NCBI RefSeq assembly: GCF_031312595.1
Contig: NZ_CP133592.1
Span: forward strand, 806,001-870,000
DNA length: 64,000 nucleotides
From: Methanolobus sediminis
GTDB taxonomy: Archaea; Halobacteriota; Methanosarcinia; Methanosarcinales; Methanosarcinaceae
Direction: 5' to 3'
The notes under the pieces were generated by a model that saw only the letters and a list, made by a program, of their open reading frames with translations, was not told where the DNA came from and did no database searches. Made by a program: the position numbers and the translations under genes. Below are positions 1,849 to 58,540 of this stretch, piece by piece (the stretch's first letter is position 1; every line of letters begins with the position of its first letter).

Positions 1849-2384
1849 CAGCTTTCCCCACTGTGATTACGTCTAAAAGATGTGCGAGAATTATCAGGAT
1901 TATTTTGGTTACGTGTTTCAAATGCCGCATGAATCATATTTTTTATTGAAGCTGGATCTGATGTCCAATTGTATATCTTAGCATAATCACACTGGAAGTT
2001 ATCATAAAGTCGAGGAGGTATTAAACCTGAAGTGAATTTTCCTGTATTGTGATCAGGATGACTTGGCAATAGTATTCCTAACAGCCCAGCACGTGGATTT
2101 TTCTCTGTATTTCTTATGCTTGAACCAATTTCCCAGTCTACATGTTTTCTTTTCCATGTTTCAGTACCTATCAACACTATTGTAACAGTTGGATCCCTAA
2201 GGTATTGATCACGAATTATTTGCCTTATTCTTTCATCACTCAAATTTTGATCATCAATATCACCAATTTGCACAGATCTGAGCACAGCAATATCAGAACT
2301 ACTTAAAATATTCTCAAATTCATCCCTATAGTATTGATCATTTTTGTGATGATAGCTAACAAATACTTTATGTTTATCACCCAT
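1842..2384 (-). CDS. TIR-like domain protein (ThsB/MTH538 type, DUF1863)
   Basis: The N-terminus reads VFVSYHHKNDQYYRDEF, followed by a LRSVQIGD segment, VTIVLIGTETWKRKHVDWEI and a GLIPPRLYDN stretch. This order matches the TIR-like family typified by Thoeris ThsB and MTH538 (PF08937), about 130-150 residues, with the conserved W-E pair of beta-D/alpha-D. In Thoeris, ThsB makes NAD-derived signals that activate a partner effector. Here no ThsA-like SIR2 or macro-domain gene is beside it; instead two membrane proteins follow in the same operon. I chose the ATG at 2384 (GTGAT upstream) over a GTG three codons earlier. The C-terminal 30 residues are polar and look disordered. Confidence 0.75.
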   Translation of the reverse strand: MGDKHKVFVSYHHKNDQYYRDEFENILSSSDIAVLRSVQIGDIDDQNLSDERIRQIIRDQYLRDPTVTIVLIGTETWKRKHVDWEIGSSIRNTEKNPRAGLLGILLPSHPDHNTGKFTSGLIPPRLYDNFQCDYAKIYNWTSDPASIKNMIHAAFETRNQNNPDNSRTSFRRNHSGESWC

Positions 2385-2393
2385 TTTTATCAC

Positions 2394-2523
2394 TGATATA
2401 TACCTACATTTACTGATAAATAAATTTTTTGATGATTTTTAAAATTCACACTTATCTACCTAAATAATGAGATTATAGATTTATTTCGTTAAGTAGATAT
2501 ATGAAAAGTTTCAAAAAGAAAGT
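2394..2523. promoter_or_regulatory. divergent promoter region between the two TIR-encoding units
   Basis: About 130 very AT-rich bases separate the divergent starts of the TIR-like gene and the AAA-TIR gene. TATA-like stretches are present on both strands (for example TTTTTTGATGATTTTTAAAA near 2427-2445), but AT-richness makes single boxes uncertain. The shared region would allow joint control of both units. Confidence 0.35.
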
Positions 2524-6818: not shown

Positions 6819-7443
6819 AACATGACCCTTCTTTAAAATCTTTTTCTGTGACTTCGCCGCGAGGTTCAGTTTCTGTAAAGATCTGACCCTCAAAAGAGTA
6901 AACTTTGGCACCTGTTACCCATGCATCATGAGGAAGACCTGCTTTTATGCATGTGTGATTAAGGAACTCAATCTCATCAAAATCATTTTCAGGAGCTACC
7001 TGTGGTAATAGCAGACCCTGCCTGTAGCCACTTTTCACAATAAGTCCATGCCTGCCGATCTTAATCGATGATGGCAGGTCCTTTGGTGGAACATCAACGA
7101 GTTCGGGTTTTGTGAGTATGGTCACTTCCACTGTGATGTCATCCATCTCCTCTTTTCTCACCGGTGGGAATCTTGGGTCACGGAGAGCTGCTGACAGAGC
7201 TGAATCTGTGATCGCGTGCCTTAATGAGGAATCAGCATACGGATGACCAATACAACCACGCAGGTCATGATTTTTGGTTAAGGTTACAAAAACTCCCCTT
7301 ACTTCATTAAATATAGCAGGGAGCTGGATCTCCGAACCATCCATCATCTCGCCTGTTCTTAAATACAATTCAATGGCATCCCTGGCAAGCTGAACAGCCG
7401 CCTGACCTTCGGTATCTGAAAGCAATTTTAACCCTTCACTCAT
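6808..7443 (-). CDS. AMMECR1 domain protein
   Basis: This 211-residue protein fits the archaeal AMMECR1 family (TIGR00296), typically 195-210 residues. Signature segments are [34 protein letters not shown] and [11 protein letters not shown]. The conserved LRGCIG hexapeptide is intact. The family is nearly universal in archaea and often sits near AMMECR2/MEMO and radical SAM partners, but its biochemical role is unknown; none of these partners is adjacent here. The start is an ATG eight bases after GGAG. It lies 51 bp downstream of pgk on the same strand and may be read through from it. Confidence 0.9.
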
Positions 7444-7494
7444 AAATAAGACTCCTTTTTTGCTGGTATTATCATCAGCAAATTAATTTAGTTC

Positions 7495-8727
7495 TTATCT
7501 GTTAAGTCTGTATCGAGTGGCTGCAACCTTAAGAGCTTCAATTCCCGGCAACTCTACTCCTGCAAGATAATCTATACATGCACCACCGCCAGTACTAAGA
7601 TGAGAGAACTTCTCGTCATAACCAAGGTTTCTCACTTCTGCTGAAATATGACCGCCACCTGCAATAGAATATTCAGACTGCACAGCAGCTTTAATGATCT
7701 CATGTGTACCGAGTGCAAATGGCTCAACTTCTGAGAGACCTGCCGGACCATTTAGAACTACGGTCTTTGCATTCTTTAATTCATCAGAAAAAGAAACAAT
7801 TGTCTCAAGGCCAATATCGTTTATTGGAAGGTTTCCATCGGGCAATTCACTCACATGAACTTCCACCCTTTTTCCACCATCATTAAAAGCAACATCAATC
7901 GGAAGTCCGATCTTGCCATTGAATTTTGCAAGAATACCTTTTCCTCTTTCTATCTGGTCAGTATAACCCTGTGATTCTATGAATTTCAGATTAGTAGAAC
8001 CTATATCTACACCAGATGCTGCAAGCATCACATTTGCAACAACACCGGTAACAAGTACCCTGTCAGCACCGCCATTACTGAGCACGTTGTCAGCAACGGT
8101 CAGTGAATCATCAACCTTTGCGCCACCAAGTACGAAAACGCATGGTCTTTCGCCACCTTTCACACCTCTGTCAAGGGAAGATATCTCTTTCTCCATGACA
8201 CGTCCGGCACCTGTTGGAAGAGTTTCAGTAAAGCCGGTGATAGAAAGATGACTCCTGTGAGAAACAGCAAATGCATCATTAAGGAATATATCGATCAAAG
8301 GAGAGAGCTTTCTTACCATATGTGTGGTTGAGTGTTCACTTGCAGGCCGATTTATACTTTCTTCAGAATAGAATCTGACATTTTCAAGTAAGATCACATC
8401 GCCTTTTTTCATAGAAGCAATGGAAGAACGTGCATATGTTCCAAAAATATCGTCCACATACTTGACTTCCTTGCCAAGATACTGAGACATGCGCTGAGAA
8501 TGCGGTTTCATGGTCGTGAAATCACTTTTACCTGCACGGCTCTGGTGAGCTATAAGTACAACCTTTGCATCCTCAAGATCTTTTATAGTAGGAATGTGGC
8601 TCTTTATTCTCATGTCATCGAGAATATTACCATCCATGTCCATAGGAGTATTCAGATCCACTCTCACAAGTATGGTCTTGCCGTCCACATCAAAATCATC
8701 AATAGTAAGATAGTCCCTGCTAGTCAA
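7495..8727 (-). CDS. pgk: phosphoglycerate kinase
   Basis: This 410-residue enzyme interconverts 1,3-bisphosphoglycerate and 3-phosphoglycerate; in a methanogen it works mainly towards gluconeogenesis. Recognisable segments are ILVRVDLNTPMD at the N-terminus, HQSRAGKSDF, VILLENVRFYSEE, FVLGGAKVDDSL, VVLNGPAGLSEVEPF and the C-terminal GGGHISAEV and STGGGACIDYLAG loops that bind ATP. Length matches archaeal PGKs. The apparent start is a TTG preceded by GGTGATGG; no ATG or GTG lies in a better position. It heads a short minus-strand unit with AMMECR1. Confidence 0.95.
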   Translation of the reverse strand: MTSRDYLTIDDFDVDGKTILVRVDLNTPMDMDGNILDDMRIKSHIPTIKDLEDAKVVLIAHQSRAGKSDFTTMKPHSQRMSQYLGKEVKYVDDIFGTYARSSIASMKKGDVILLENVRFYSEESINRPASEHSTTHMVRKLSPLIDIFLNDAFAVSHRSHLSITGFTETLPTGAGRVMEKEISSLDRGVKGGERPCVFVLGGAKVDDSLTVADNVLSNGGADRVLVTGVVANVMLAASGVDIGSTNLKFIESQGYTDQIERGKGILAKFNGKIGLPIDVAFNDGGKRVEVHVSELPDGNLPINDIGLETIVSFSDELKNAKTVVLNGPAGLSEVEPFALGTHEIIKAAVQSEYSIAGGGHISAEVRNLGYDEKFSHLSTGGGACIDYLAGVELPGIEALKVAATRYRLNR

Positions 8728-8944
8728 AATTCCATCACCGCTTCTTATAACCTGAATGACTAATGATCAATATATATAGAGTAAATAAGTCCACGTAAGT
8801 ATATAAATGACATATATTGTCTAATTTTTGGTCATAATGAACTAATCTTATTATATCTTTTCCATTAAGGGAAAAAGGAAAAGGCAGCCAAAAACTAATA
8901 TTACTTGTATCGTTATTTGTATTTCATTGCAAAATGGTGATCAT

Positions 8945-9508
8945 ATGAAGATACTCGGAATATCAGGAAGCCCAAAAGTTGGCCAGAATAATGACACATT
9001 AATCAAAGAAATTCTAAAGATTGCAGCAGAAAGAGGTTTTGAAACTGACGCTGTATTTCTCTCAGAATCAAAAGTAGCCCCATGTACTGCATGCGGAGTT
9101 TGCGCAAAGGGGGAAAAGTGTGTAATTGACGATGACATGCAGCCAGTCTATGACAAACTTGTGGAAGCAGACGCAATTGTAGTTTCTTCCCCGGTCTACT
9201 TCGGAACCATGACTGCACAGCTTAAAGCACTCTGTGACAGAAGTGTGGTGCACAGAAGACAGGGATTCAAGCTCAGCAACAAACTTGGTGCAGCAATGGC
9301 AATCGGTGGTTCAAGAAACGGCGGTCAGGAGAAGACAATACAGACTATCCACGAGTGGATGCACATCCACGGAATGATAATTGTCGGTGATGGCGGACAC
9401 TTCGGTGGAATTCTCCAGAAACCTGCTGCAGAAGATGAAGAAGGCATGAAAACAGCAGTTGACACCATTAACAAAGTCTGTGATGTCCTTGAAATGATGA
9501 AGAAATGA
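8945..9508 (+). CDS. iron-sulfur flavoprotein (Isf-type NAD(P)H-FMN reductase family)
   Basis: This 187-residue protein starts MKILGISGSPK, the flavodoxin-like FMN fold of the NADPH-dependent FMN reductase family. It carries the compact cluster motif C47-x2-C50-x2-C53-x5-C59, the hallmark of archaeal iron-sulfur flavoproteins such as Methanosarcina thermophila Isf, which binds one [4Fe-4S] cluster plus FMN. VVSSPVYFGTMTAQLKAL and AIGGSRNGGQEKT line the flavin site. Family members take electrons from ferredoxin and can reduce O2 or H2O2. I chose the ATG at 8945 (GGTGATC just upstream) over one six codons earlier. It stands alone ahead of acs. Confidence 0.9.
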   Translation: MKILGISGSPKVGQNNDTLIKEILKIAAERGFETDAVFLSESKVAPCTACGVCAKGEKCVIDDDMQPVYDKLVEADAIVVSSPVYFGTMTAQLKALCDRSVVHRRQGFKLSNKLGAAMAIGGSRNGGQEKTIQTIHEWMHIHGMIIVGDGGHFGGILQKPAAEDEEGMKTAVDTINKVCDVLEMMKK

Positions 9509-9673
9509 AATATTTTCTTCACATATTTATTCAATCTATATTCATTTACTATTTTTCAGTCCAACTCTTTTTGGATGTTTTTACAACAGCCCACAACAAA
9601 CCATATAAACAAATTGAGACAATCTTATCTTAGAGACAAATACAGGGATTTATTTGTCCATGTGGGTGTAACC

Positions 9674-11617
9674 ATGGGAGAAAAATCAGACCAATCTCAA
9701 GAAAGCGGAGCTTTGTTTGAAGCACCAGAAGACTTTGCCTCAAATGCAAATGTCAATGATCCTGATATTTACAGAATAGCTGACGAAGACCCGGAAAAGT
9801 TCTGGGAAAAGAACGCAGAGAACATTGAGTGGTATAACAAATGGGATAAAGTTCTGGAATGGGAACCTCCACACTCAAAATGGTTTGTTGGAGGGAAACT
9901 CAATGCATGTTACAACTGTCTTGATGTGAATCTCAAAGAGCGTGCAGATAAGCATGCACTTATCTGGGAATCCGAAAGCGGTGAGATTCTCAAATATACC
10001 TACAGTGAACTGCTTGAAGAGGTATGTAAGTTTGCAAACGTGCTCAAAGACCTTGGAGTCAAAAAAGGAGATATTGTTACAATATATCTCCCAATGATAC
10101 CTCAGGTCATAATTTCCATGCTTGCATGTGCACGTATTGGAGCACCGCATAGTGTTGTTTTTGCAGCTTTTTCCGGAGAATCCCTTGCAACAAGGATTGA
10201 AAACGCTAATAGTAGAATCCTTGTGACATGTGACGGATACTCACGACGTGGAAATGTGGTCGAACAAAAGAACAAGGTAGACGATGGAATTCGCTCCAGT
10301 GAAATTGTTGACAAAGTCGTTGTTGTCAAGCATCAGGACAACGACGTTCAGATGAAAGAGGGAAGAGATCTCTGGTGGCATGATGTTATGGAAGGAGCAG
10401 ATACTTCATGTGAACCTGAAATTATGGATTCCGAGGATATGCTCTTTTTGATGTACACCAGTGGTACAACTGGAAAACCAAAAGGAATTGTCCACACTAC
10501 AGGTGGATACATGGTTGCAACCCAGACAACAAGCAAATTCATCTTTGACCTGAAGGAAGATGATATCTACTGGTGTACTGCAGATTGCGGATGGATAACA
10601 GGACACTCATATATTGTTTACGGACCACTGGCCAACGGTACTACCCTTATAACTTACGAAGGAGCGCCGGATTATCCTGACAAGGACAGGTACTGGGATA
10701 TTATTGAAAGACACAAGATTACAATACTTTACACAGCGCCAACAGCCATCAGGACATTTATGAAATGGGGACCATCATGGCCTCAGATGCATGACATATC
10801 ATCACTCAGACTTATCGGCTCTGTGGGTGAACCTATAAACCCGGGTGCATGGTTGTGGTATCATGAAAATATAGGACTTGGGAAATGTCCTGTTGTCGAT
10901 ACATGGTGGCAGACCGAGACCGGAATGATAATGATATCTCCACTTCCTGGAATCACTGCTACAAAACCAGGAAGTGCCACAATGCCATTCCCGGGAATAA
11001 AAGCAACTGTCCTGGATGAAAAAGGAAATGAAACCGCACCAGGAGAGAATGGATATCTTGCAATCCTCAATCCGTGGCCAAGTATGGTACGTACTGTGTT
11101 TGGGAATGAAGAGCGGTTCATTGAAACTTACTGGAGCAAATGGGACAATAAGACCTATTTTGCAGGTGACGGAGCAAAGAAAGACAAAGATGGTTACTTC
11201 TGGATAATTGGCCGTGTAGATGATGTTATCAAAGTTTCAGGTCATCGTATCGGAAGTGCAGAGTTTGAAAGCATCATGGTGTCACATCCTTCTGTAGCTG
11301 AAGCAGGTGTTGTGGGAAAGGAAGATGAGGTCAGGGGTGAGGTTATCTACTGTTACATAACTCTCAGAACAGGGGTTGAGGAAAGCGAAGATATAAAGAA
11401 AGAGCTCAGGAATTATGTTGAAAGGAATATTGGTCCCTTTGCACGTCCAAAACAAATAATCTTTGCTGAGGACCTGCCAAAAACAAGAAGTGGTAAGATC
11501 ATGAGAAGAGTGCTTAAAGCAATTGCAAACGAAAAAGACCCAGGGGACCTTACAACACTGCAGGATCCTGATGTTGTTCAGGCACTGAAAGAAAAAACAA
11601 AGTTGCTTGAAGATTAA
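9674..11617 (+). CDS. acs: acetyl-CoA synthetase, AMP-forming
   Basis: This 647-residue enzyme activates acetate with ATP and CoA to acetyl-CoA, AMP and PPi in the cytoplasm. Core motifs of the ANL superfamily are present: YTSGTTGKPKGIVHTTGGY (P-loop, near residue 260), CTADCGWITGHSY, DTWWQTETG, VSGHRIGSAEFES and TRSGKIMRRVLKAI with the catalytic lysine that is acetylated in regulated homologues. Length matches bacterial and archaeal Acs. I prefer the ATG at 9674, with GGTG upstream, because the 33 codons before it are not conserved in character. The acd unit converges from the right. Confidence 0.95.
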   Translation: MGEKSDQSQESGALFEAPEDFASNANVNDPDIYRIADEDPEKFWEKNAENIEWYNKWDKVLEWEPPHSKWFVGGKLNACYNCLDVNLKERADKHALIWESESGEILKYTYSELLEEVCKFANVLKDLGVKKGDIVTIYLPMIPQVIISMLACARIGAPHSVVFAAFSGESLATRIENANSRILVTCDGYSRRGNVVEQKNKVDDGIRSSEIVDKVVVVKHQDNDVQMKEGRDLWWHDVMEGADTSCEPEIMDSEDMLFLMYTSGTTGKPKGIVHTTGGYMVATQTTSKFIFDLKEDDIYWCTADCGWITGHSYIVYGPLANGTTLITYEGAPDYPDKDRYWDIIERHKITILYTAPTAIRTFMKWGPSWPQMHDISSLRLIGSVGEPINPGAWLWYHENIGLGKCPVVDTWWQTETGMIMISPLPGITATKPGSATMPFPGIKATVLDEKGNETAPGENGYLAILNPWPSMVRTVFGNEERFIETYWSKWDNKTYFAGDGAKKDKDGYFWIIGRVDDVIKVSGHRIGSAEFESIMVSHPSVAEAGVVGKEDEVRGEVIYCYITLRTGVEESEDIKKELRNYVERNIGPFARPKQIIFAEDLPKTRSGKIMRRVLKAIANEKDPGDLTTLQDPDVVQALKEKTKLLED

Positions 11618-11673
11618 ATTGCAAAATTAACTATTAGAATTCAAAATTAATATTCAGAATAAATAGTAATGAT

Positions 11674-11696
11674 AAAAGGAGAACAAATCTCCTTTA
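11674..11696. terminator. bidirectional stem-loop between acs and acd unit
   Basis: AAAGGAGA and TCTCCTTT pair perfectly around a five-base loop, with A- and T-rich flanks on both sides. It lies 57 bp after acs and overlaps the stop of the convergent DRTGG gene, so it could end both transcripts. Confidence 0.5.
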
Positions 11697-12773
11697 TTCA
11701 TTTAATTCAATGCCTGTGCTTGCTGCAATAGCATGAATATCAAGATGATTTTTCAGAAGGTCAACTACCCTGTCAAGCTTTACCTGTTGTTTAATATGAG
11801 CATGACCAATCAGGTTTTCCATTCTCTCAATGGTGTTCATGGTATCACCACGTACAAGAATTACAGGAATTCCGGCTTCCTCTGCACTTGCAAGAACAGC
11901 ACCGCTTGGACGCATATTTCCAGTAAGAATCAAACATTTAACTCTTGAATCGATTGCAGCCATCTGTATATCTGCCCTGTCACCGCCGGTGATAACAACA
12001 CTGTTTGGCTGGCGTCTGAAGTATTTGATCGCAGAGCCTACTTCCATTGCTCCTACAAGATAGTTCTCAACAAGCTGGTCCAGTTTATCAGGAGCTACAA
12101 GAACCTCGGCATGCAGATCCTCCACAATCTCTGAAATGAATGCCGAGCGCAAGGTGTGGTCTTCATAGATAACTCCAAACACCTTTATGCCCTTACGCTC
12201 AAGGAAAGGAACAACTATCTCAGTAACCCTGTCTTCCATGTTTTCCGGAACCTCATTGAGTACTACACCTGTAAGAGTTGCTTTATCTCCAACAATACGC
12301 AGGTCAGAAAGTATCCTGTCAACTGCAGAGATAGAATCAAAGCGTGTGACAAGCAACATTGGGATTCCAAGTTTAGATGCTACTTCCGGGTCGGAAAGAC
12401 CGTACATTGAACCGCCACCGATACAACCTGTACCTTCCACGAATACGACATCTTTATCCTTTGAGATAACAGAATATGCATCTGAAAGCCTTTTGTCAAG
12501 GTCTTTCTCAACACCTTTGAGTGCATCGTCTATGAGACTGTCTGTAAGATGGATAGGAGTAACATATTTTGCAGGGTCCTCAATTCCCAGAAGTCTCTTG
12601 ATACCTTCGGAATCTTCATCCGTAAGTGAACCGTCCACATCGATCAGGAGATTTCCAACCGGTTTCATGTAACCGATCTTCAGACCACTTTCCTGGAATA
12701 TTTTCCCCAGACCCATACATATAGAGCTCTTACCCGAGTACTCTTCTGATGAACTAACCAATATTGAAGCCAT
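11694..12773 (-). CDS. P-loop (CobB/BioD-like) plus DRTGG-domain protein
   Basis: The protein (359 residues from the preferred ATG) starts MASILVSSSEEYSGKSSICMGL, a modified P-loop of the dethiobiotin-synthetase/CobQ class, with DVVFVEGTGC further on. A middle domain of about residues 205-320 is a DRTGG domain, as in the N-terminal half of some phosphotransacetylases, with VVITGGDRADIQMAA as its core. The catalytic phosphotransacetylase domain itself is absent. It follows the ADP-forming acetate-CoA ligase gene by 13 bp, so a regulatory or cofactor role in acetyl-CoA conversion is likely but unproven. The ATG at 12773 has GGAG nine bases upstream; an upstream ATG overlaps the acd stop. Confidence 0.85.
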   Translation of the reverse strand: MASILVSSSEEYSGKSSICMGLGKIFQESGLKIGYMKPVGNLLIDVDGSLTDEDSEGIKRLLGIEDPAKYVTPIHLTDSLIDDALKGVEKDLDKRLSDAYSVISKDKDVVFVEGTGCIGGGSMYGLSDPEVASKLGIPMLLVTRFDSISAVDRILSDLRIVGDKATLTGVVLNEVPENMEDRVTEIVVPFLERKGIKVFGVIYEDHTLRSAFISEIVEDLHAEVLVAPDKLDQLVENYLVGAMEVGSAIKYFRRQPNSVVITGGDRADIQMAAIDSRVKCLILTGNMRPSGAVLASAEEAGIPVILVRGDTMNTIERMENLIGHAHIKQQVKLDRVVDLLKNHLDIHAIAASTGIELNE

Positions 12774-12786
12774 AATTACCATCTCC

Positions 12787-14886
12787 TTACTCATTCAGAT
12801 TCAGTGTGAACCTGATATCCATTGCAACACATCCCTGACCTTCAGGCATTACCATTAAAGGATTAATTTCAAATTCTAATATTTCCGGAAAATCCGTAAC
12901 TAACTGTGACACTTTCAGAAGTGTCCGGACTATTGAATCGATATCCGATGCCGCCTCACCTCTTACACCTGCGATTAACGGATATGTCTTAATTGACGAC
13001 ACCATGTGCTTCGCCTCCGCTTCTGCGATAGGAGCAACTGCAAACGAAACGTCTTTCAGGAACTCTACGTAAGTTCCTCCAAGTCCGAACATCAACAGTG
13101 GACCAAATTGTGGGTCCCTGTCCATTCCAATGATGACCTCTTTTCCTCCACTTATCATCTTCTGGAGCTGGACACCTGTGATTGCGGCATCAGGCATGTA
13201 GTGTCTTACATCTGACATCATGGAATTGTAAGCACGCTCCACGTCATCCGCATGCTTGAGATTTAAGCGGATACCTCCCACATCACTCTTATGTGAAATG
13301 TCGGGTGACAGAATCTTCATGACAATGGGATAGCCCATGTCTTCTGCTGCTTTGACCGCATCGGGAAGGTTTTTTGCTATCCTTGCATCAACAACCGGAA
13401 TATCATACGCTTTCAGTATATCCATAGATTCAAGGCCATGCATCCTTCTTTTATTTTTAGAAGCAGAATCTATAAAAGATTGAGCATACTCTTTGTCCGC
13501 TTTGATCTCAGCGGGAGCGCCACGTTTGTGATTCCTTATGGTGTAATAGTTACAGAGAGCATTCATACTTGCAACTGCTCTTTCTGAAGAGGAGTAATTG
13601 GGAATTCCATATTTGTTGAGGATTTCCTCACCTGCCGCAATCCTGCTTCCACCTGCAAAGTTACAGAGTATCGGTTTTTTAGAATCCTTAATCTTTGCTG
13701 CAACCTTTTCAGCAATTCCCGGAACATCTGTCATTGACTGGGGAGATACGAGAACTATGATTCCGTTTACGTTAATATCATCCAGAACTACATCAAGAGC
13801 ATGTTCGTAAAGGTCTGCACCTGCATCTCCTAAAACGTCAACCGGGTCGTAGAAATTAGCAGCAGGTGGCAATTTTTCCCTCAATCTTTCAACGGTCTTC
13901 TCTTCAAATGAAGCTATTGACAAGCCTGAATTATAACAGGCATCTGCTGTCAGGATACCAAGACCGCCTGCATTGGTGATTATGGCAATATTCCTGCCTT
14001 CCGGCAGAGGACAGACCGAGAAAGCACGGCTGTAATCGAGCATTTCCTCAAGAGAATCTGCACGCAGAACACCACCCTGCTTGAAAGCTGCGTTATAGGC
14101 GGCGTCCGAACCTGCCAGTGTACCGGTATGTGATGACACGGCTTTAGATCCGACTGAGGTTCTTCCTGATTTTACAATAACAACTGGTTTTGAACGCGAT
14201 ACCCGCTCTGCAATCTTAATGAATTCAGGACCGTCTTTTACACCTTCAAGATAAGCTGCAATAACTGCCGTTGACGGATCTTGTTCAAACAATTGTAAAA
14301 AATCATTTTCCGCAAGTACTGCTTTGTTTCCAAGGCTTATGAATTTGGAGAAACCAACTCCGATCCTTTCAGCCCAGTCCAGGGTCACGGTACATATCGC
14401 ACCTGACTGGGACATCATGGCTATGTTTCCCTCATATGCCATATTAGCAGCAAAAGATGCGTTAAGTCCTGAAGCAGTATCAATTATACCCAGACAATTC
14501 GGACCTATCAGTTTTATTCCATATTTTTCACATAATGCTATACATTCGCGTTCAAGACGTGCACCTTCTATACCGGCTTCCTTAAAACCGGCAGATATGA
14601 CAATGACATTTCCAACGCCGGCCCTGCCGCATTCATCAATGGAACCGGGAACAAACTTTGCCGGAACCACGATTATTGCAAGGTCGACCTTTGTTTCAGG
14701 TGGGACTTCCAGTATGTTATGATAACACGGAAGTCCTAATATTTCATCAACATTCGGATTAATAGGTATGATAGTGAGCTCACTGTTCTGCATCAGATTT
14801 TCAAGTACAGCTCGCCCTACCTTTCCTTCTGTTCTGGATGCACCGATAACGGCTACAGAATCAGGATTGAACATTTTCTCGAGCAT
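12787..14886 (-). CDS. acd: acetate-CoA ligase (ADP-forming), fused alpha-beta subunits
   Basis: This 699-residue enzyme converts acetyl-CoA (or another acyl-CoA), ADP and Pi to the acid, ATP and CoA. Domains run in order: CoA-binding Rossmann (residues 1-130, NPDSVAVIGASRTEGKVG), flavodoxin-like ligase domains (about 140-450) with the phospho-His segment VSSHTGTLAGSDAAYNAAF near 254, and an ATP-grasp domain (about 480-699) with ISPDISHKSDVGGIRL holding the second conserved His. Fused forms occur in many archaea, while hyperthermophiles often split the subunits. It is the first gene of a two-gene unit with the DRTGG protein. The ATG lacks a strong ribosome site but the N-terminus aligns well with the family. 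Confidence 0.92.
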   Translation of the reverse strand: MLEKMFNPDSVAVIGASRTEGKVGRAVLENLMQNSELTIIPINPNVDEILGLPCYHNILEVPPETKVDLAIIVVPAKFVPGSIDECGRAGVGNVIVISAGFKEAGIEGARLERECIALCEKYGIKLIGPNCLGIIDTASGLNASFAANMAYEGNIAMMSQSGAICTVTLDWAERIGVGFSKFISLGNKAVLAENDFLQLFEQDPSTAVIAAYLEGVKDGPEFIKIAERVSRSKPVVIVKSGRTSVGSKAVSSHTGTLAGSDAAYNAAFKQGGVLRADSLEEMLDYSRAFSVCPLPEGRNIAIITNAGGLGILTADACYNSGLSIASFEEKTVERLREKLPPAANFYDPVDVLGDAGADLYEHALDVVLDDINVNGIIVLVSPQSMTDVPGIAEKVAAKIKDSKKPILCNFAGGSRIAAGEEILNKYGIPNYSSSERAVASMNALCNYYTIRNHKRGAPAEIKADKEYAQSFIDSASKNKRRMHGLESMDILKAYDIPVVDARIAKNLPDAVKAAEDMGYPIVMKILSPDISHKSDVGGIRLNLKHADDVERAYNSMMSDVRHYMPDAAITGVQLQKMISGGKEVIIGMDRDPQFGPLLMFGLGGTYVEFLKDVSFAVAPIAEAEAKHMVSSIKTYPLIAGVRGEAASDIDSIVRTLLKVSQLVTDFPEILEFEINPLMVMPEGQGCVAMDIRFTLNLNE

Positions 14887-15032
14887 GATTTCTCCCTGAG
14901 ATTATTCCCTTTTTATTAATACTGTTCAATGATAGATAAAATTAAGGGAAAAAGTAAAAAGAAAAGAAATTCCCTCAACTCAAAGAGAATTCCTCTAATG
15001 TTACTGATTTATTTATGATACAAACTACATAA

Positions 15033-17532
15033 TCATTTTTTCAGACGTCTGTACCTCTTCCCGTCAGGATTGCTGATCTGGAGATACAATTGCTCATAGT
15101 GTCCTCTGTATTTATATCCTACAAATCCTATCGCACCGATCATACCTACAAGCAATAGTAGCAGAATTCCCTTGTTACTTTTCTTATCCTGGGGCACCTC
15201 TGTTCCAACAGGAACTATCTCATCACCAATAGACATAGCAGATTGGTTTTCAGCAGAGCTGCTCTCTATCAGAGTTGTGACTCCTGGAACAAGAATCGCA
15301 AATGGTGAAAAGCCCGGAGTTTCGGCTGAATAATACAGATAATCTTCATCTTCACTTTCAAAGGTGGTTTCCAGAAGAGTCCACTCTCCACCAGAGTAAC
15401 GGGAAAGTACTATTGAATCCTGTTCAACATCATTGAAATATACCCATGATTTTTCAACTTTGAACCTGATAATCACGTCAGAGATCACATCTGATGAGAA
15501 CTTTGAATCGCCTACCCAGATGTTAAGGTTCTTGTAAACTGTCCCTGGTGCCTTACTGTCAACAAGAGTGGAAGTTCCCTTTAATATTTCAACCATTGCT
15601 TTGATCTGACCTGCATTGAGCTTTGATGTAAAGCTAATTGAAGTTATGCTGTTCTCATCCTCGTTGAATGAGAATACTGTTTCAGTATCCCTCATTACAG
15701 ACCTCAGAACATAGTCTTTGAGTTCAATATTCTCATATGGCTCTCCGGTATTCTGAGAACCTCCACCACCACTGCTTGAGCTGGACGTTGTACTAGAAGA
15801 AGAGGATGAAGATGAGGTTTCAGTAACAGTTATGGAAACTGTCTCATAGTCTTCCTGAGAGCTATCACTTACATAAAAACTAACCGAATAATCACCGATA
15901 TCCTCACTGGATGGCGTCCATTCAAAGACACCTGTTGACTCATCGAATGATGCGGTTGAAGGTAGATCCAATGCTTTATAGGAGAATGTTTCACCTTCGT
16001 CATCATCAGAAACCGAAAGAGAGAAATCCAATGTATTATTTACCGCTACCTCCTGAGCACTGATAGAGTTGAGCTTGGGAGGCATGTTAGAATCTGTGAC
16101 AGTGATTGTTGCCATTGTACTGTTTTTCAGATTTCCATCTGATACAGTATATTGCACATCGTATACATCTGCATCATTGTAATCCGGCGTACATATGAAA
16201 GTGTTACCTCGCACAATACCAAGGCTGCTATCTGTTGAATATGTAAGAGTGTCTCCGTCAGGATCGGTAGCACTCAAATTAACGTAAAGAAGACCATTTT
16301 CACTAACGGTATAATCATCAACAGCATCTATTACAGGAGCACGGTTCACATCATTGACCACGATGTCAACTACCTGATATGTGGCATACCTATCCTTAGT
16401 GTTGGTTTCTGAAACTTTGAACTCCACTTTATAGATACCAGATAGATCATAATTGGGAAGCCATGTAAATGTAACTGGAGGAACACTGCCAGTTAAATAT
16501 GAACCTGATGGAGAAGATGAAAGTACAATATCAATCTTATCATTATCATTATCGTATGCCGTGATATCAAAAGACAACTCTGAATTTTCATCAATTGATT
16601 GGGAATCTACCATATTGAACTCAGGAGGAGAATTTGAATCACCAATAACAATCTGTGGATATTTTGTATCTGAAAGGAAACCATCACTTACGCTAAAGGT
16701 CAGAACACGACTACTTGTAGTAGGATTCGGCCATTGGAACAATCCTATTTCCGAATCAAAAGATGCACCTGTTGGCAAACTACTCACCATTGTGTAAGTA
16801 AGCTCATCACCATCAGCATCAAAAGCGTCTAGTTGAATTGTAACAGGTGTAGTTTCATTAACTGAAACATCACTAATGGAAAATAGAATAGGGTCACGGT
16901 TCACATTTGAAACTGTTATTAAAGCAGTCTGACTCACTGAGGAAGAACCGTCAGTTACACTGAAAATAATATCATGTTCACCCTGGTCATCATAGTCAGG
17001 TGTCCAGGTGAAAATATTGCCTTCAAGGGTTCCGAATGAGACATCCTTTGAAAAAGCAAGTATATCTGAGTCCTCATCTGTTGCCGCAAGTGTTAATTGG
17101 ATCTCTTCGCCCTCATTTTTGGAAGAATCAGCAATAGCGGAAAAAATCGGTGCACGGTTTGTGTTTTTCACTGTAATAGTGATATACTCAGAATCGAGGT
17201 GTGAACCATCAGAGACCACAAACTGAACCAGATAATCACCAGCCTGTTCATAAGTAGGGGGTCCATTCAAAAAGACCAGAAGAAGCATCAAGAGTTGCAC
17301 CAGCAATAGAATCAATATCCGGACAGGAAAACGTAAGAGTATCGTTCTCGGGGTCATCCGCAGATAATGTGAAAGTCAGCAAACTGTTCTCATTGACCGA
17401 GCGGTCACCTATCACATCAAGAATTGGAGTATCTGTTACAGCTGCGATTGCTGTCGTTTGTAATAAGATGAAAAGTGTGAGAATAAGCAGAAATTTTATA
17501 AATAACCGCTGAATGAGTAAATTACGATCCAT
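15033..17532 (-). pseudogene. surface protein with cadherin-like repeats and PGF-pre-PGF domain, frameshifted
   Basis: A signal peptide (MDRNLLIQRLFIKFLLILTL) and the first repeat are read in one frame from 17532. The frame then shifts at a five-base C run (G on the plus strand, 17257-17261), after which the rest continues in the next frame. Removing one C would restore TGG-ACC-CCT-ACT and an 832-residue protein. It has six cadherin/He_PIG-like repeats (NEN-type starts, DPDGD and DEDSD calcium-type loops), a serine-rich linker, a PGF-pre-PGF domain ending ETPGFSPFAI, a membrane segment, and a basic tail NPDGKRYRRLKK. GGAGGGG precedes the ATG. It may be a real null allele, a phase-variable gene or a sequencing error. 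Its C-terminal third is paralogous to the next gene. Confidence 0.8.
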
Positions 17533-17730
17533 TTTTCCCCTCCAACTAAATGAGAAGGTATGTTCTGTTTGCTATCAAACCCCTCTATAGTCTACTCTAT
17601 TTTATCTCGTATTGAGATAAAGCTATTTGAATATAATAATCCACATATATTTTCAGATTGGTGTTTAATAGTTACATGAAGAAAAATAGGACAGCAGGAA
17701 TAAAACCATCTGCTGTCAAATACATGTTAT

Positions 17731-19956
17731 TTATTTTTTGGTACGTCTGTAACGCTTTCCATCAGGATTTCCTAGCTGCAACTTCACCTTCTCGTAGTAA
17801 TCTCTGTTCCTGTAACCAACTACTCCGATAGCTACCAAACCGATAAGCCCAATGATTAGCAGGAATGGGAATGATGAACTTTCCTTTTGTGGGAGAGCAG
17901 CTCCTGAGTCCAATGGAGATGCGTCATTATCTTCTGTAGACTTCAATTGTTCTATATCCACTGAAGTTGCTTCAATCTTCTCAGCTGAAGCCTCTGTGGT
18001 AAGTGTGGATGGATCTACACTTGATATTGCAAACGGAGAGAATCCGGGTGTTGTGGAAGTGAAGTAGTAGTAGTATTCATCCTCTCCTGTTGCTTCTGTT
18101 GAAAGTGTATCCCATTCACCACTGTTGTACCTACAGAGTGTGATGAACGATACATCGATATTATTCTCTTCTACCCAGATCTTTTCAACCTTAAAGTTGA
18201 TGACACGGTCACCTATTACATCGTCTCCCAGATTAGAATCGATGTAAATGTTCATGTTCTGGTAAACATCACCTGGTGCTGCAGACTTTACCTGAGAGGA
18301 AGTATCCTTCAATACTTCGATAACTGCCTTGACCTGTCCACCATTGAGCTCAGATGTAAAGCTCAGGGAAACTATGTTGTTGTTCTCCTCGTAGAAGGAG
18401 AATACCGTTTCAACATCCCTTACTACAGACTTCAGGGTATAGTCCTTGAAATCGATGTTATCAAAGTCTTCACCGGAGGTCAAAGCTCCGCCTCCGCCTC
18501 CTCCGCCACCACTGCTGCTGCTTGAGCTAGAAGTTGTCTCGACTGAACTAACTACAACTTCTACTGTTGCTGTGTAACCACCAGTGTTTGCATAGCCTTC
18601 TGGAATATCACTCAATGTAGCAGTGAAAGTATAGGTTCCTGCAGTATCAGGATCATAAATGTCAGTATCAACCCAGTCACTTACATTTACGGTTACAGCA
18701 CCAGAGTTAGCTGTGACATTTGCTGGCAAGACTACTGCTACTTCTGCTGCATCGGCATAGGTTGCTGAACCTGCTGTACCTGCACTAACATCACTTATTG
18801 AATCAAATGAGGTGATCTCTACAAGTGCTGCAACCACGAAGGTTACATCAAATGATCCACTGACACTTTGATCAGCTGTCACTGTAACGGTTGCAGTATA
18901 ACTTCCAACAGCCAATCCGTCATTAGGTACAACTGTGAACGTTGTAAAGGTTGTGGAATCGTCCAGTGTTGTAGCTACGGGTTGTGTTACTGTGAAATCA
19001 GAAGAATTGACGCCGCTAAGTGCAACAACAAGGCTTGTAATGTCACCGGTTCCGGTCCTTGTAATATTGACAGTAGTTGGAGTCTCTGATGCATAACCGG
19101 CAGTAACTGAACCAAGATCTACAGTACCACTTGCATTCAAGTTTATAGTGTAGGTTGGTGCTGCTGCTGCAACCACGAAGGTTACATCAAATGATCCACT
19201 GACACTTTGATCAGCTGTCACTGTAACGGTTGCAGTATAACTTCCAACAGCCAATCCGTCATTAGGTACAACTGTGAACGTTGTAAAGGTTGTGGAATCG
19301 TCCAGTGTTGTAGCTACGGGTTGTGTTACTGTGAAATCAGAAGAATTGACGCCGCTAAGTGCAACAACAAGGCTTGTAATGTCACCGGTTCCGGTCCTTG
19401 TAATATTGACAGTAGTTGGAGTCTCTGATGCATAACCGGCAGTAACTGAACCAAGATCTACAGTACCACTTGCATTCAAGTTTATAGTGTAGGTTGGTGC
19501 TGCTGCTGCAACCACGAAGGTTACATCAAATGATCCACTGACACTTTGATCAGCTGTCACTGTAACGGTTGCAGTATAACTTCCAACAGCCAATCCGTCA
19601 TTAGGTACAACTGTGAACGTTGTAAAGGTTGTGGAATCGTCCAGTGTTGTAGCTACGGGTTGTGTTACTGTGAAATCAGAAGAATTGACGCCGCTAAGTG
19701 CAACAACAAGGCTTGTAATGTCACCGGTTCCGGTCCTTGTAATATTGACAGTAGTTGGAGTCTCTGATGCATAACCGGCAGTAACTGAACCAAGATCTAC
19801 AGTACCACTTGCATTCAAGTTTATAGTGTAGGTTGGTGCTGCTGCACTTGCTACTAGCACTGGGTTAAATATCGATAAAACTATGGAGATCGACAAAAGT
19901 ACCCTTATATAATTCAATACCCCGTTTTCCTTACTGTTTTTAATAAAGGGATGCAT
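17731..19956 (-). CDS. surface protein with three identical Ig-like repeats and PGF-pre-PGF domain
   Basis: This 741-residue protein has a signal peptide (residues about 13-38), three copies of a 113-residue beta-rich repeat (starting AAAPTYTINLNASGTVDLGS), a bacterial Ig-like domain (PF07532-type, VEITSFDSISDVSAGTAG), a Ser/Gly-rich linker, a PGF-pre-PGF domain ending STTPGFSPFAI, one membrane segment and a basic tail NPDGKRYRRTKK. It is likely a cell-surface or S-layer-associated protein anchored by its C-terminal helix. I chose the ATG at 19956, which follows GGGTGAG, over one 27 codons upstream. The tail and PGF-pre-PGF region match those of the downstream frameshifted gene, so the pair arose by duplication. 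Confidence 0.88.
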   Translation of the reverse strand: MHPFIKNSKENGVLNYIRVLLSISIVLSIFNPVLVASAAAPTYTINLNASGTVDLGSVTAGYASETPTTVNITRTGTGDITSLVVALSGVNSSDFTVTQPVATTLDDSTTFTTFTVVPNDGLAVGSYTATVTVTADQSVSGSFDVTFVVAAAAPTYTINLNASGTVDLGSVTAGYASETPTTVNITRTGTGDITSLVVALSGVNSSDFTVTQPVATTLDDSTTFTTFTVVPNDGLAVGSYTATVTVTADQSVSGSFDVTFVVAAAAPTYTINLNASGTVDLGSVTAGYASETPTTVNITRTGTGDITSLVVALSGVNSSDFTVTQPVATTLDDSTTFTTFTVVPNDGLAVGSYTATVTVTADQSVSGSFDVTFVVAALVEITSFDSISDVSAGTAGSATYADAAEVAVVLPANVTANSGAVTVNVSDWVDTDIYDPDTAGTYTFTATLSDIPEGYANTGGYTATVEVVVSSVETTSSSSSSSGGGGGGGGALTSGEDFDNIDFKDYTLKSVVRDVETVFSFYEENNNIVSLSFTSELNGGQVKAVIEVLKDTSSQVKSAAPGDVYQNMNIYIDSNLGDDVIGDRVINFKVEKIWVEENNIDVSFITLCRYNSGEWDTLSTEATGEDEYYYYFTSTTPGFSPFAISSVDPSTLTTEASAEKIEATSVDIEQLKSTEDNDASPLDSGAALPQKESSSFPFLLIIGLIGLVAIGVVGYRNRDYYEKVKLQLGNPDGKRYRRTKK
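18827..19845. repeat. three tandem 339-bp repeats within surface protein gene
   Basis: Three consecutive 339-bp units (about 18827-19165, 19166-19504 and 19505-19843) look identical at the nucleotide level, including an antisense open frame that recurs unchanged three times. Each unit encodes 113 residues. Identity at silent positions points to very recent amplification or ongoing gene conversion; copy number may vary between isolates or be mis-assembled. Confidence 0.95.
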
Positions 19957-20324
19957 ACTCTCACCCTTGAATATATCTGCGATCTGAGTCCGATATATCA
20001 TATATTTATTTTGAGCTGCATACAACCACAAATACAACTACGTCTATTGCTTTTACGGACATACAGTTGTATCACTGATGCCCCACATTACTCCACGTTT
20101 ATCAATATATCCTGATATATTATAAAAGTATTCAATATCTGCGTTTTTATAAATAAAACCATATTATTATACTATATAATTATATACTAGTATTTTATAG
20201 AATTGAATACATCAGTGACGTATTGACAACTATGACATAATCAATGTAATGATAGATAAGAATGGTGATTCAAAAAATATATCTATAATGTACATGTTAC
20301 ACCAGCCACCTATTATTAATAGAG

Positions 20325-22085
20325 ATGAAATATTTGGATGAAAAAACAGCCTTCCAAAAATTCAAGCAGAATATAGTTCAGTGGTTGCATACAGAGTCAC
20401 TGATATCTAACACGCTTGCGATGATCATAGGAATCCTGACAGGGCTTGCAATTGTTTTCTATGATACACTGCTGGAGATCGGTCACACCGCCTTCTTTGG
20501 AACAGTTTCATCCTCACCGCGATATTTCATTATTCTTTTGCCTGCAATCGGAGGACTCATTGTAGGGCTTATTGCCCATTATACTATCAATACCAGAAGA
20601 TACGACATAGAAGAGATCATTGAGGCAACTGCCCTGCGTGGCGGCAGAATGTCAGTTCGTAATGCTTTTCTTGAAGTATTGGCATCCATCATATCCATCG
20701 GGTCAGGCGGATCAGCCGGAAAAGAAGCACCCGTTGTTCTTGCAGGTTCAGGAATAGGATCTGCTCTTGCCGAAACACTGCATATCCACGGAAACAGAGT
20801 AAAGATACTCATCGGATGTGGTGCCGCAAGTAGTATTGCCGCAGCATATAATGCCCCTCTTGCAGGTGTTGTCTTTGTCGTAGAAGTGATTCTTGGTGAA
20901 CTGGAAGCAAGCAGTTTCATACCAATTGTGGTATCAGCAGTATTTGCTACAATCGTTTCAAGTCTTGTTTTTGGTGCCGAGAATATAGGGGTTGCAACAT
21001 ACGAATTCGTTGATCCTTCCCATGAATTTGTACTCTATCTCCTGCTTGGAATTTTAGCAGGCCTTACATCCGCACTGCTGATGCGTACCCTTTTCAGCAT
21101 ACATCAAATATTTGACTCCCTGCAGATGCATCCGGTGATTAAACCCGCATTTGGCGGACTACTGGTAGGATTTATCGGGTTTTTCTATCCACAGGTGTTC
21201 GGTGTCGGATATGATGTGATCACAGATGCCCTCAATGGTAATCTCGCATTACAAGTAATGTTCCTGCTGATATTTTTAAAGATAATTGCTTTTTCATTCA
21301 CCATGGGCTCCGGCGGATCAGGAGGATCCATTGTACCTGCTCTTTTTGTAGGAGCAATGATGGGAGGAAGCTATGGATCAATAGTTCATGGATTATTCCC
21401 GCAAGTCACGGCAGAATCCGGAGCATACGCACTTGTTGGAATGGGAGCTGTCTTTGCAGGAACCAGTAGAGCACCGCTAACCTCCATTCTTATCCTCTTC
21501 GAACTTACAAGGGACTATAATATGATACTGCCAATCATGCTGGCATGTGTCGTCAGTAATGTCATATCCAGTTCCATTAATTCAGAATCCATATTTACAG
21601 AAGGACTCCGTCGTAGAGGATTTACCATCAGGAAAGGAAGAGAAGTTGACATTATGGAAGCACTGCTTGTTAAGGATGCAATGAAACATAACGTACAGAC
21701 TGTGTCCGAGAACAAGAATGTAGGTGCGCTCATCGCACTTATGCAGTCAAGCAGACATGCGGGCTTCCCTGTACTTGACTCCAATGGACAACTTTCCGGA
21801 ATTGTAACTCTTAAGGATGTCAGAGATAAAGTCGGCCATGACGAACTGGAAAAAACTATCACAGAAATATGCACCAAAGATGTTGCAATAGCTTATCAGG
21901 ACGAAACACTGAATACTGTACTAAAACGACTTGCTGCAAAAGATATAGGCAGACTCCCGGTGGTATCAAGATCAGATAGCACTAAATTGCTGGGAATCAT
22001 CACCCGCAGTGACATAGTCAAACTATATGACAAAAAGATACTGGACAAAGTCCAGAGAATTCAGAAAATGAACCCGGATCAGTAA
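20325..22085 (+). CDS. ClC-family chloride channel/antiporter with CBS domains
   Basis: This 586-residue protein has a ClC membrane domain (residues about 25-420) and a C-terminal CBS pair (about 445-570). Filter motifs are GSGGSAGKEAPVV, with Glu134 at the gating-glutamate position, and GSGGSGGSIVPALFVGAMMG. The canonical GREGP is GKEAP here. The CBS region (VKDAMKHNVQTV, AGFPVLDSNGQLSGIVTLKDV, LGIITRSDIVKLYD) probably binds adenine nucleotides and regulates gating. Whether it is a channel or a Cl-/H+ antiporter cannot be told. The ATG at 20325 follows a long AT-rich region and only a short AGAG motif. It is divergent from the surface-protein genes. Confidence 0.93.
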   Translation: MKYLDEKTAFQKFKQNIVQWLHTESLISNTLAMIIGILTGLAIVFYDTLLEIGHTAFFGTVSSSPRYFIILLPAIGGLIVGLIAHYTINTRRYDIEEIIEATALRGGRMSVRNAFLEVLASIISIGSGGSAGKEAPVVLAGSGIGSALAETLHIHGNRVKILIGCGAASSIAAAYNAPLAGVVFVVEVILGELEASSFIPIVVSAVFATIVSSLVFGAENIGVATYEFVDPSHEFVLYLLLGILAGLTSALLMRTLFSIHQIFDSLQMHPVIKPAFGGLLVGFIGFFYPQVFGVGYDVITDALNGNLALQVMFLLIFLKIIAFSFTMGSGGSGGSIVPALFVGAMMGGSYGSIVHGLFPQVTAESGAYALVGMGAVFAGTSRAPLTSILILFELTRDYNMILPIMLACVVSNVISSSINSESIFTEGLRRRGFTIRKGREVDIMEALLVKDAMKHNVQTVSENKNVGALIALMQSSRHAGFPVLDSNGQLSGIVTLKDVRDKVGHDELEKTITEICTKDVAIAYQDETLNTVLKRLAAKDIGRLPVVSRSDSTKLLGIITRSDIVKLYDKKILDKVQRIQKMNPDQ

Positions 22086-22103
22086 ATCATTTGCTGAAGA
22101 AAA

Positions 22104-22128
22104 AATCCAGGAATGGATTCCGCTTTTT
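22104..22128 (+). terminator. stem-loop terminator after the ClC gene
   Basis: AATCCA-GGAA-TGGATT forms a 6-bp hairpin followed by CCGCTTTTT, 18 bp past the stop codon. Confidence 0.5.
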
Positions 22129-22142
22129 AAACGGATGCATAT

Positions 22143-23435
22143 TTAATTGTCATCAACAATGCGACCCAGGAAATAACCAGGTGTCGCATCATAGATAAGC
22201 ACACGACATGTAATTCCGGGCTGCAAATCGCATTCAGGAATTACAACAGGTTTGTATGACGCAGTTCTTGCCATCATACCTTTCTGCTTTGCAGGTTTAG
22301 ACAGGAAAACTTCCACCTCTTTTCCAATCATTCCTTCGCGGGTAGAAAGCTTCACAGCCTCACACACCTCATGAAGCTCATTGGACCTGTTCACAACAAC
22401 ACGTGAATCTATTTTGCGCATGTCCCATGCCTTTGTATGCGGCCTTGGAGTAAAACGGGAAATATTAACCTTTTCCGGCTTCCATTCTTTTACCCATTCC
22501 ACTGTCTTTTGGAAATCTTCATCCGTCTCACCGGGGTAACCTGCAATAATATCTGTGAAAATAGTCATATCAGAGAATCGTTCCCTGAAAGCCTCGATGA
22601 TAGCATTAGCTTCTGAAATTGAGTGATACCTGTTCATATTCTTCAAAACATCATCTGAAGCAGATTGTATTGGCAGGTGGAGGAATTTGTATATCCTTTC
22701 ATCCTCAAATGCGTCAAGCAGGTCATCAAGAATAGGAATAACTGAGAATGGATTCATCATTCCCACTCGTATCCTGTAGTTACCCGGAATCCTGCATATC
22801 ATTTTCAACAATTGTGGCAATAGAACTTCTTTGTCTGTTCCGTACTGCCCGTTATCCTGTGAAGTCAGCCAGATCTCCCGGCAACCTTCGTCAACTGCTC
22901 TCTGGATATCATCAACGATATCTTCCGGTTCAAATGAAGATAACTTTCCGCGTGCAATGGTCACTATGCAATAAGCACATGCATAATTGCAACCCTGGGA
23001 AAGCTGGCAGATATGAATATTAGGATTGTAACGAATCCTCGGGACACTCTGGAAACCCTCCGGTTCTTCAAGGAAGAGTTTCACGCTGCCGCCTGTCAGT
23101 TCATTGCGTGAAAGGGAATCAAGTACCTGACCTAATCTGGATATCGAATTTACACCCAGTATATGAGCATCAGGGTTCTGGTGCATTATGTCGTCAAGCT
23201 GTACTTCAGGCATGCACCCTGTTACAATGACAGATATTCCTTTTTCACCATATTCCCGAATTTGATGGAGAATTTTCTGCTCTGTACTGTACTTCACAGT
23301 ACATGTGTTGATAACCACCACATCGGCATTGTTCTCAGGGACAAGTTCATGTCCACCGTCCCTGACACTTGCCTTCATAATTTCGGCTGATGCCTGACTG
23401 GCAGAGCAGCCGTATGTAGAAATATGTACTTTCAT
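22143..23435 (-). CDS. tRNA threonylcarbamoyladenosine methylthiotransferase (archaeal MiaB/MtaB-like)
   Basis: This 430-residue radical SAM enzyme most likely adds a methylthio group to t6A37 of tRNA (archaeal/eukaryotic CDKAL1-like branch). The N-terminal domain MKVHISTYGCSASQASAE carries three cluster cysteines (Cys10, then INTCTVK and VTGCMPEV). The radical SAM motif is CNYACAYCIVTIARGK (C-x3-C-x2-C), and a TRAM domain closes the protein (VFLSKPAKQKGMMARTASYKPV). Length is typical. It ends 60 bp from the ClC gene and follows glpX by 21 bp, so the two may be co-transcribed. Two other genes acting on t6A-type modifications (Cgi121 and TrmO) lie within 10 kb. Confidence 0.92.
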   Translation of the reverse strand: MKVHISTYGCSASQASAEIMKASVRDGGHELVPENNADVVVINTCTVKYSTEQKILHQIREYGEKGISVIVTGCMPEVQLDDIMHQNPDAHILGVNSISRLGQVLDSLSRNELTGGSVKLFLEEPEGFQSVPRIRYNPNIHICQLSQGCNYACAYCIVTIARGKLSSFEPEDIVDDIQRAVDEGCREIWLTSQDNGQYGTDKEVLLPQLLKMICRIPGNYRIRVGMMNPFSVIPILDDLLDAFEDERIYKFLHLPIQSASDDVLKNMNRYHSISEANAIIEAFRERFSDMTIFTDIIAGYPGETDEDFQKTVEWVKEWKPEKVNISRFTPRPHTKAWDMRKIDSRVVVNRSNELHEVCEAVKLSTREGMIGKEVEVFLSKPAKQKGMMARTASYKPVVIPECDLQPGITCRVLIYDATPGYFLGRIVDDN

Positions 23436-58014: not shown

Positions 58015-58540
58015 AGTTTATCACTTCCCTAAGATAAATTGGATAAATATCATATAATATTCAAATTTGTATAATTGTTCATACTGACCATAAAATTAAA
58101 CGCCAGAAATTCTCTACCATCAAATAGTGTAATACGTAACTGCTTGCTACCTCCATCAAGTGTTACTTGTAACTGCTTGCTACCTCCATCAAGTGTTACC
58201 TATTTCACCTCCTGCTAATGACTTTAAAATAGAAGTATATATCATTTTTGATTATGATAAAATAGAATATTAAAGATTAAGCTATCTTTCCGATAACAAC
58301 GAAGAAATAAAGACTTAAAATTAATATAAGAACCAAATACAGCTTTTTTAGCAATAATACACTCAAAAAAACCTACAAAATACAAATTAAATATAAAATA
58401 TAATAGATATATTTCCAGAGAGTCTGCTATTTGTATGTTATGCACATTTCTTACAAAATCAAGACGGAAACTTTATATACCAAAATCGTACATATTTTCT
58501 GCTTTTTCAAAGAAGAAAGAAGACTGTAAATTCAAAAATA
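58015..58540. other. AT-rich intergenic region before the SatP-like gene
   Basis: No protein gene is supported; the only open frame (58242-58445, minus) is phenylalanine/isoleucine-rich noise. The region holds the direct repeats at 58136-58199, and a TATA-like GGTATATAAAG at about 58471-58482 read on the minus strand (also readable as TTTATATA on the plus strand). Confidence 0.45.
58136..58199. repeat. two 31-bp direct repeats, each an imperfect hairpin
   Basis: The 31-bp unit beginning GTAACTGCTTGCTACCTCCA occurs twice (58136-58166 and 58169-58199, period 33 bp), with a degraded third copy to the left (about 58111-58135). Each unit pairs GTAAC with GTTAC and CTTG with CAAG. They sit 122-185 bp upstream of the SatP-like start. 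Confidence 0.8.

Follow-up and report, generated by a model that had tools for sequence, protein, structure and literature searches.

In Methanolobus sediminis, one gene for a predicted surface protein (gene A) carries a run of repeats that do not differ from one another at a single base, which raises the question of where the repeated domain came from, how recently it was multiplied, and what part the repeats play in the protein. We analyzed a window of 64,000 nucleotides around this gene (G000:C1:806001-870000), and all positions without a locus number refer to it. TRF reports three tandem copies of period 339 on the minus strand (100% match, no indels, score 2040), so that the array amounts to 3.009 base-identical copies of a 339-bp unit, and a repeat search likewise gave a spacing of 339 with three copies, each at 100%. 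The original observation that the identity extends to silent sites holds: the three 113-codon copies are mutually equal base for base, including 77 fourfold-degenerate codons per copy. The span first given for them, 18827 to 19845, does contain the array, though its start is one base off (18826). The array is in frame with the gene A open reading frame (ORF) on the minus strand, and chance is ruled out for an exact tandem match of 1,020 bp. The junctions between copies 1 and 2 and between copies 2 and 3 read GTTGCAGCAGCAGCACCAACC, the 5′ edge of the array reads AGTGCAGCAGCACCAACC and its 3′ edge GTTGCAGCACTT, and GCAGCA is common to the array junctions. In the rest of the genome the unit has no further match at E ≤ 0.01. 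The copy number is that of a single assembly, in which the window lies on a 2.79-Mb contig. Elsewhere in the window, 33-bp tandem repeats occur at 58117-58199 (1.9 to 2.4 copies, some at 100%), and positions 2001-4000 have the lowest G+C content (0.285) among the 2-kb blocks.

Read from a TTG, the gene A ORF extends over 17731-20037 (768 amino acids [aa]); translation more probably begins at the ATG at 19956, giving 741 aa, because several congener ORFs begin at a methionine that matches it. The predicted protein consists, in order, of a signal peptide, the three copies, a single Big_4-like domain, a Ser/Gly linker, a PGF-pre-PGF domain, a hydrophobic segment, and a tail that ends in GNPDGKRYRRTKK (Table 1). 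The signal-peptide end is identical at 50 of 55 positions in congener G001, and the tail GNPDGKRYRR recurs exactly in 20 of 24 congener ORFs, is varied in two (G007 and G017), and is absent from two (G014 and G018). The match to the PGF-pre-PGF model TIGR04213 (153.9 bits) is well above its curated cutoff of 28, and the NCBIfam matches of gene A at E ≤ 1 include no model for PGF-CTERM, the archaeosortase substrate signal. Surface location, as originally proposed, is what the signal peptide and hydrophobic tail (both by reading) and the TIGR04213 match predict. The proposal of an exposed stalk is not borne out in the sense of a stalk beneath a head: no distal or adhesive domain precedes copy 1, and the array begins at the predicted mature N terminus. 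The best explanation of the gene A product is a membrane-anchored surface stalk protein, predicted to have constant ends and an exchangeable middle.

Table 1. Features of gene A and its repeat array, in window coordinates
Feature	Position	Strand	Basis or remark
Gene A, predicted surface protein, 741 aa	17731..19956	(-)	congener ORF starts
N-terminal signal peptide (by reading), beginning MHPFIKNSKENGVLNYIRVLLSI	19846..19956	(-)	congener conservation
Array: three 339-bp copies plus 3 nt	18826..19845	(-)	
Copy 1, 113 aa, Ig-like beta-sandwich	19507..19845	(-)	
Copy 2, identical	19168..19506	(-)	
Copy 3, identical	18829..19167	(-)	folded in silico with next domain, mean pLDDT 96.7
Single Big_4-like domain, 97 aa as queried	18544..18834	(-)	Pfam Big_4 E 0.018, below cutoff
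Replaced cassette: array plus Big_4-like domain	18538..19844	(-)	no congener alignment covers 18538-19833 (n = 8)
Ser/Gly-rich linker	18484..18543	(-)	by reading
PGF-pre-PGF domain (TIGR04213)	18022..18471	(-)	E 3.2e-45
Hydrophobic C-terminal segment (by reading) plus tail GNPDGKRYRR	17734..17880	(-)	tail kept in congeners

Among Pfam models, gene A matches that of the beta-sandwich domain PITM1-3 best (E 0.00032, short of the cutoff); Big_4 (PF07532) reaches 15 bits against a gathering cutoff of 22.1; and choice-of-anchor D (NF012200) reaches 30 bits for the whole protein, below the curated cutoff of 45, with no match at E ≤ 0.01 for a single unit. Copy 3 and the domain that follows it were predicted as beta-sandwich domains in a two-domain model (mean pLDDT 96.7). 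With this model, VIA-align matched the unit to the SPD-2 (ASH) domain of CEP192 (Z 11.3 over 102 residues, rmsd 2.1) and to PapD-like chaperones at Z of about 10, while Foldseek placed the S-layer protein SbsB first (E 1.8e-6) but at a TM-score of 0.35; a sequence search of solved structures returned two matches, both at E 0.35. The repeated domain is Ig-like, nearest the choice-of-anchor-D model, with an ASH/PapD-like fold. The matches to the predicted model are to common beta-sandwiches and name a fold rather than a function. A model of all three copies was too poor (mean pLDDT 59.9) to show a rod shape for the array. Compatible with the stalk explanation is the idea that the array is itself the functional binding part, as a multivalent adhesin or a matrix protein that associates with itself, and not a spacer whose length matters, for which we would give a little less than even odds. 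The copies do sit at the predicted mature N terminus with nothing more distal, and congeners carry other sequences at that place; against this, no ligand or binding motif was found, recombination yields exact identity whatever the function, and Ig-like arrays frequently serve as spacers only.

The edges of the variable middle are sharp. Of the 26 other Methanolobus genomes, 24 (all but G013 and G020) each supplied a stretch surrounding a TIGR04213 gene, and we aligned window positions 12787-23435 to eight of these stretches by blastn. The gene had been described as otherwise diverged, and its middle proved to be so: the interval from 18538 to 19833 is covered by no alignment in any of the eight. 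At the 5′ side (relative to the gene), alignments in these congeners end between 19834 and 19850, within 11 bases of the array edge. In G025, the congener whose flanking genes are closest, the alignment (87.5% identity) extends from 23435 and breaks off at 19844, two bases inside the array; in G022, homology runs to 19837 and resumes at 18536-18537 (82 to 87%). Third-position G+C content (GC3) is 0.274 in the unit and 0.196 in the Big_4-like part, compared with 0.332 to 0.439 in the gene A anchor, the adjoining gene B, and five neighboring genes, and 0.405 in the short signal-peptide stretch; this lends weak support to a foreign origin of the cassette, and amino-acid makeup may contribute to it.

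We searched for relatives of the two domains with a sensitive domain search that covered Methanolobus, its class and phylum, and Bacillota. The unit was found in none of the 26 other Methanolobus genomes at E ≤ 0.001 (1 of 27 with this one), none of 236 other genomes of the class, and none of 391 others in an even sample of the phylum (both E ≤ 1e-4; the genus, class, and phylum sets overlap). Its best match, at 67% identity, is in a metagenome-assembled genome of Anaerovorax odorimutans (locus L027), and it occurs in 20 of 393 genomes of the Bacillota order to which that genome belongs (E ≤ 1e-5) and in 8 of 391 genomes of an overlapping Bacillota class sample (E ≤ 1e-10). The Big_4-like domain has no match in the 26 congeners (1 of 27 with this genome) and matches in 12 of the 393 genomes of that order (best identity, 66%). 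A whole-protein pattern scan of 84,980 species genomes, able to detect close relatives only, returned L027 and three Methanolobus loci. The search for a donor found none: identity peaked at 67% for the unit and at 66% for the Big_4-like domain, the two best matches being in different bacteria. Both domain types adjoin in the same order as in gene A at loci L130 and L131, where Big_4 scores 31.8 bits (passing) and 21.9 bits (just missing 22.1), respectively, but these proteins are not the donor because the adjacent unit is only 35% identical in L130 and 27% in L131; the Big_4-like domain of L027 is 35% identical. L130 has an LPXTG anchor above the cutoff, L131 an LPXTG match below it (13.3 versus 15.9 bits), and L027 and L124 have SLH domains; from these signals, all four are predicted to be bacterial surface proteins. 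In a further bacterial relative, L127, three copies together score 77.2 bits for choice-of-anchor D, over the cutoff. A tree of 21 domain rows places the unit beside L027 (85/76, not starred) and within a starred set of six whose other members are bacterial (96/92); all the other rows in the tree are bacterial, and it therefore cannot test the direction of transfer. We considered a viral, phage, or plasmid origin of the unit and rejected it, having found no relative in viral contigs, plasmids, or phages. Among the Bacillota loci, L138 carries 8.0 copies of a 600-bp repeat at 91% (6983-11784) beside its relative of the unit, and the protein at L131 640-5718, which has both domain types, has a legume-lectin-like domain near its N terminus.

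The middle of gene A is best read from these distributions as foreign to the genus and of bacterial type. A contrary view holds that the unit is an old archaeal stalk domain, lost, or changed past recognition, in the other Methanolobus species, so that the amplification alone is new and no transfer from bacteria took place. Ig-like domains are abundant in the surface genes of these genomes, the choice-of-anchor D match is weak enough (30 bits against 45) that distant archaeal members could escape notice, and the L027 protein also has Big_9 and He_PIG domains, types found in the archaeal arrays, which shows a repertoire largely common to both domains of life. Yet the unit is missing from all 236 class and 391 phylum genomes at E ≤ 1e-4 while reaching 67% in Bacillota, and both domains would have to have been lost in 26 congeners; we consider this history unlikely.

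Capture of a bacterial-type module would then have been followed by multiplication of one of its domains, and the copies bear on when. Two independent comparisons among them give 0 differences at 678 sites, or a divergence of at most about 0.44% by the rule of three, and 0 differences at 154 fourfold sites, for a bound of 1.9%. Between the window and G025, fourfold sites differ by 29.5% in the ClcA gene and by 38.3% in the MiaB gene. Because the copies show no differences against this divergence of the flanking genes, the amplification or last homogenization appears to be recent, as had been suggested, and by these estimates far younger than the species split; the case of relatives whose own copies carry silent changes does not arise, the unit being absent from the congeners searched. 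Zero differences are compatible with one recent amplification and with ongoing homogenization alike. We assign a probability of roughly 0.72 to the reading that gene A encodes a mosaic stalk protein whose ends are constant and whose middle derives from the capture of a bacterial-type module and the later triplication of one of its domains. Recombination near the Ala-rich end of the signal peptide would have brought the module into the locus. Unequal crossing-over or slippage, for which the GCAGCA runs at the unit edges may have been the seed, would then have produced three copies of one domain, and these may stay identical through further exchange. The product would likely be a short row of beta-sandwiches at the cell surface, its length changeable in steps of 113 aa.

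The same site varies throughout the genus. At least one of the same neighbor genes is present in 23 of the 24 congener stretches, the exception being L036, a 7.3-kb contig (the neighbor names ClcA, MiaB, ACS, AcsM, and LeuRS are labels read from ORFs). A start of the HP-x-x-KN type occurs in 16 of the 24 loci; among the other eight, G014, G015, and G016 have runs read as N, G008, G017, and G018 run off their contigs, and the ORF used for G003 and for G007 lacks such a start. The G018 ORF, cut by the contig end, may be another paralog. The mature part that follows the signal peptide varies from species to species, one type of congener sequence beginning near SISSDKV. Pfam, run on gene A of 6 of the 24 congeners, identified Big_9/He_PIG Ig domains in G022, G009, G019, and G002 and Big_3 in G004, with no match in G011. 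Near-identical tandem arrays (at least 95%, period at least 60) are present in five of the 24 stretches (L030, L032, L036, L043, and L044) and inside gene A itself in two congeners, G024 and G004. Gene A of G024 (L030 3715-8557) has 17.9 copies of 270 bp at 99%, more extreme than the array in the window; its 17 whole copies are 0 to 1 base apart and fall into two variants, arranged as ABAAABAABAABBBAAA, a pattern that favors repeated exchange between copies. G004 has 3.0 copies of 261 bp at 96%, gene A repeats in G022 and G025 are at 77 to 83%, and the remaining congeners of the 24 have none. These copy-number differences are between species, and the species of the window is represented by one genome.

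The conserved anchor end of gene A adds a history of its own. In a tree of ClcA-like plus MiaB-like proteins (20 rows), the window groups with G025 (SH-aLRT 100). The C-terminal anchor of gene A, in a tree of 20 of the 58 anchor rows, groups the window with G022, G009, G024, and G016 (100/100), apart from G025, G019, G001, and G006. Constraining the anchor to group with G025 was rejected (p-AU 6e-42), as was keeping the seven-species flank clade together (p-AU 5e-5), the constraint groups being taken from the flank tree and both trees having been seen before testing. The anchor thus appears to have a different history from the flanks. In G022, the anchor of a second gene (L028 12671-13458) is 86.6% identical in DNA to the gene A anchor of the window and clusters with A anchors, which suggests conversion between neighboring genes.

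The genome of M. sediminis has ten TIGR04213 matches, two of which are genes A and B. Gene B (15033-17357), which adjoins gene A, is a paralog with cadherin-like Ig domains. It is broken near its 5′ end (17200-17540, minus strand), where the frame switches at about 17258, at a C run: before the break, the signal peptide and first Ig domain share one frame, and the remainder is in another, so that the break may be either a true frameshift or a sequencing error. In the other eight genes, on seven stretches, near-identical arrays are lacking, and L120 has just a 69/138-bp repeat at 73 to 74%; one of the eight, which extends past its stretch, showed no repeat of period 30 or more when scanned over its whole length. 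The second contig, L123 (G000:C2, 3506 bases), encodes a phage-type integrase, has a 452-aa ORF with no Pfam match, and is perhaps a small plasmid. That the array in gene A is an assembly artifact, its true copy number other than three or unequal copies merged into one consensus, is very improbable: assemblies often misjudge tandem arrays, and the frame break in gene B hints at possible sequence errors, but the 2.79-Mb contig crosses the array unbroken, the collapse of a longer array could yield three copies but not a triplication from one, and G024, also on one contig, has its long array in the same gene.

Capture and triplication in gene A may be one instance of something wider. We tentatively suggest, as a conjecture that we think has clearly less than an even chance of being right, that Methanolobus keeps a permanent display site between its ClcA-like and AcsM-like genes, at which the conserved signal-peptide and anchor ends serve as homology arms while unrelated stalk or adhesive modules, some from bacteria sharing the habitat, are swapped in and then tandemly amplified or shrunk. 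If true, this would give archaea a counterpart to cassette-exchanged bacterial adhesins. For gene A itself, the interest lies in an apparent capture of domains across the divide between bacteria and archaea in one gene, with sharp edges and then triplication without silent change; genus-wide, a locus with conserved ends, different middles, and arrays of up to 17.9 near-identical copies offers a handle on archaeal surface diversification.

Neither mosaic formation nor similar repeat arrays are new to surface proteins; the apparent novelty lies in the sharp anatomy seen across a genus and in the combination of bacterial-type domains with a recent triplication. Among the matches listed from open-licence papers (supplements aside), none is on the Methanolobus locus. 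The passages matched in Makarova et al. (2021, PMC8416519) describe archaeal VARTIG and other mosaic Ig proteins varied by recombination, including mosaic proteins in Methanosarcinales, with C-terminal Ig domains conserved or homogenized; they name Methanolobus once, for a different protein. VARTIG proteins have a variable C terminus and are described there from Thermococcales, whereas in gene A, from Methanolobus, both ends are conserved and the middle, with domains of bacterial type, varies. Tandem-repeat surface proteins and coding satellites are reported from Methanosarcina, one group having units of 246 to 264 bp (excerpts of PMC2447325 and PMC6749651). There too, in related methanogens, repeats encode surface protein domains; gene A differs in its 339-bp unit, its other domain family, its absolute identity, and the genus-wide locus comparison. 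Adhesin-like proteins of Methanobrevibacter and Methanosphaera contain repeated Ig-like "archaeal Big" domains, which are possibly unique to archaea according to the portion of PMC11532034 consulted, whereas the domains of gene A have bacterial relatives. The nearest working likeness is found in the Periscope Proteins, which the sections matched in Whelan et al. (2021, PMC8201768) and a review (PMC9704523) characterize as having tandem, highly identical, individually foldable surface domains (of about 50 to 165 residues according to PMC9704523), with recombination expected to alter copy number. Periscope Proteins are single chains attached to the surface, with a rod-like array whose copy number varies within populations. 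Gene A resembles them in that its copies are 100% identical in DNA and its domain is predicted to fold (pLDDT 96.7), and differs in being archaeal and in a predicted membrane anchor that replaces the sortase signal. An N-terminal adhesive domain projected by the stalk is typical of the Gram-positive members, and the gene A array is without one. The Methanolobus locus lets one ask whether changes of stalk length, known in bacteria, also occur in archaea.
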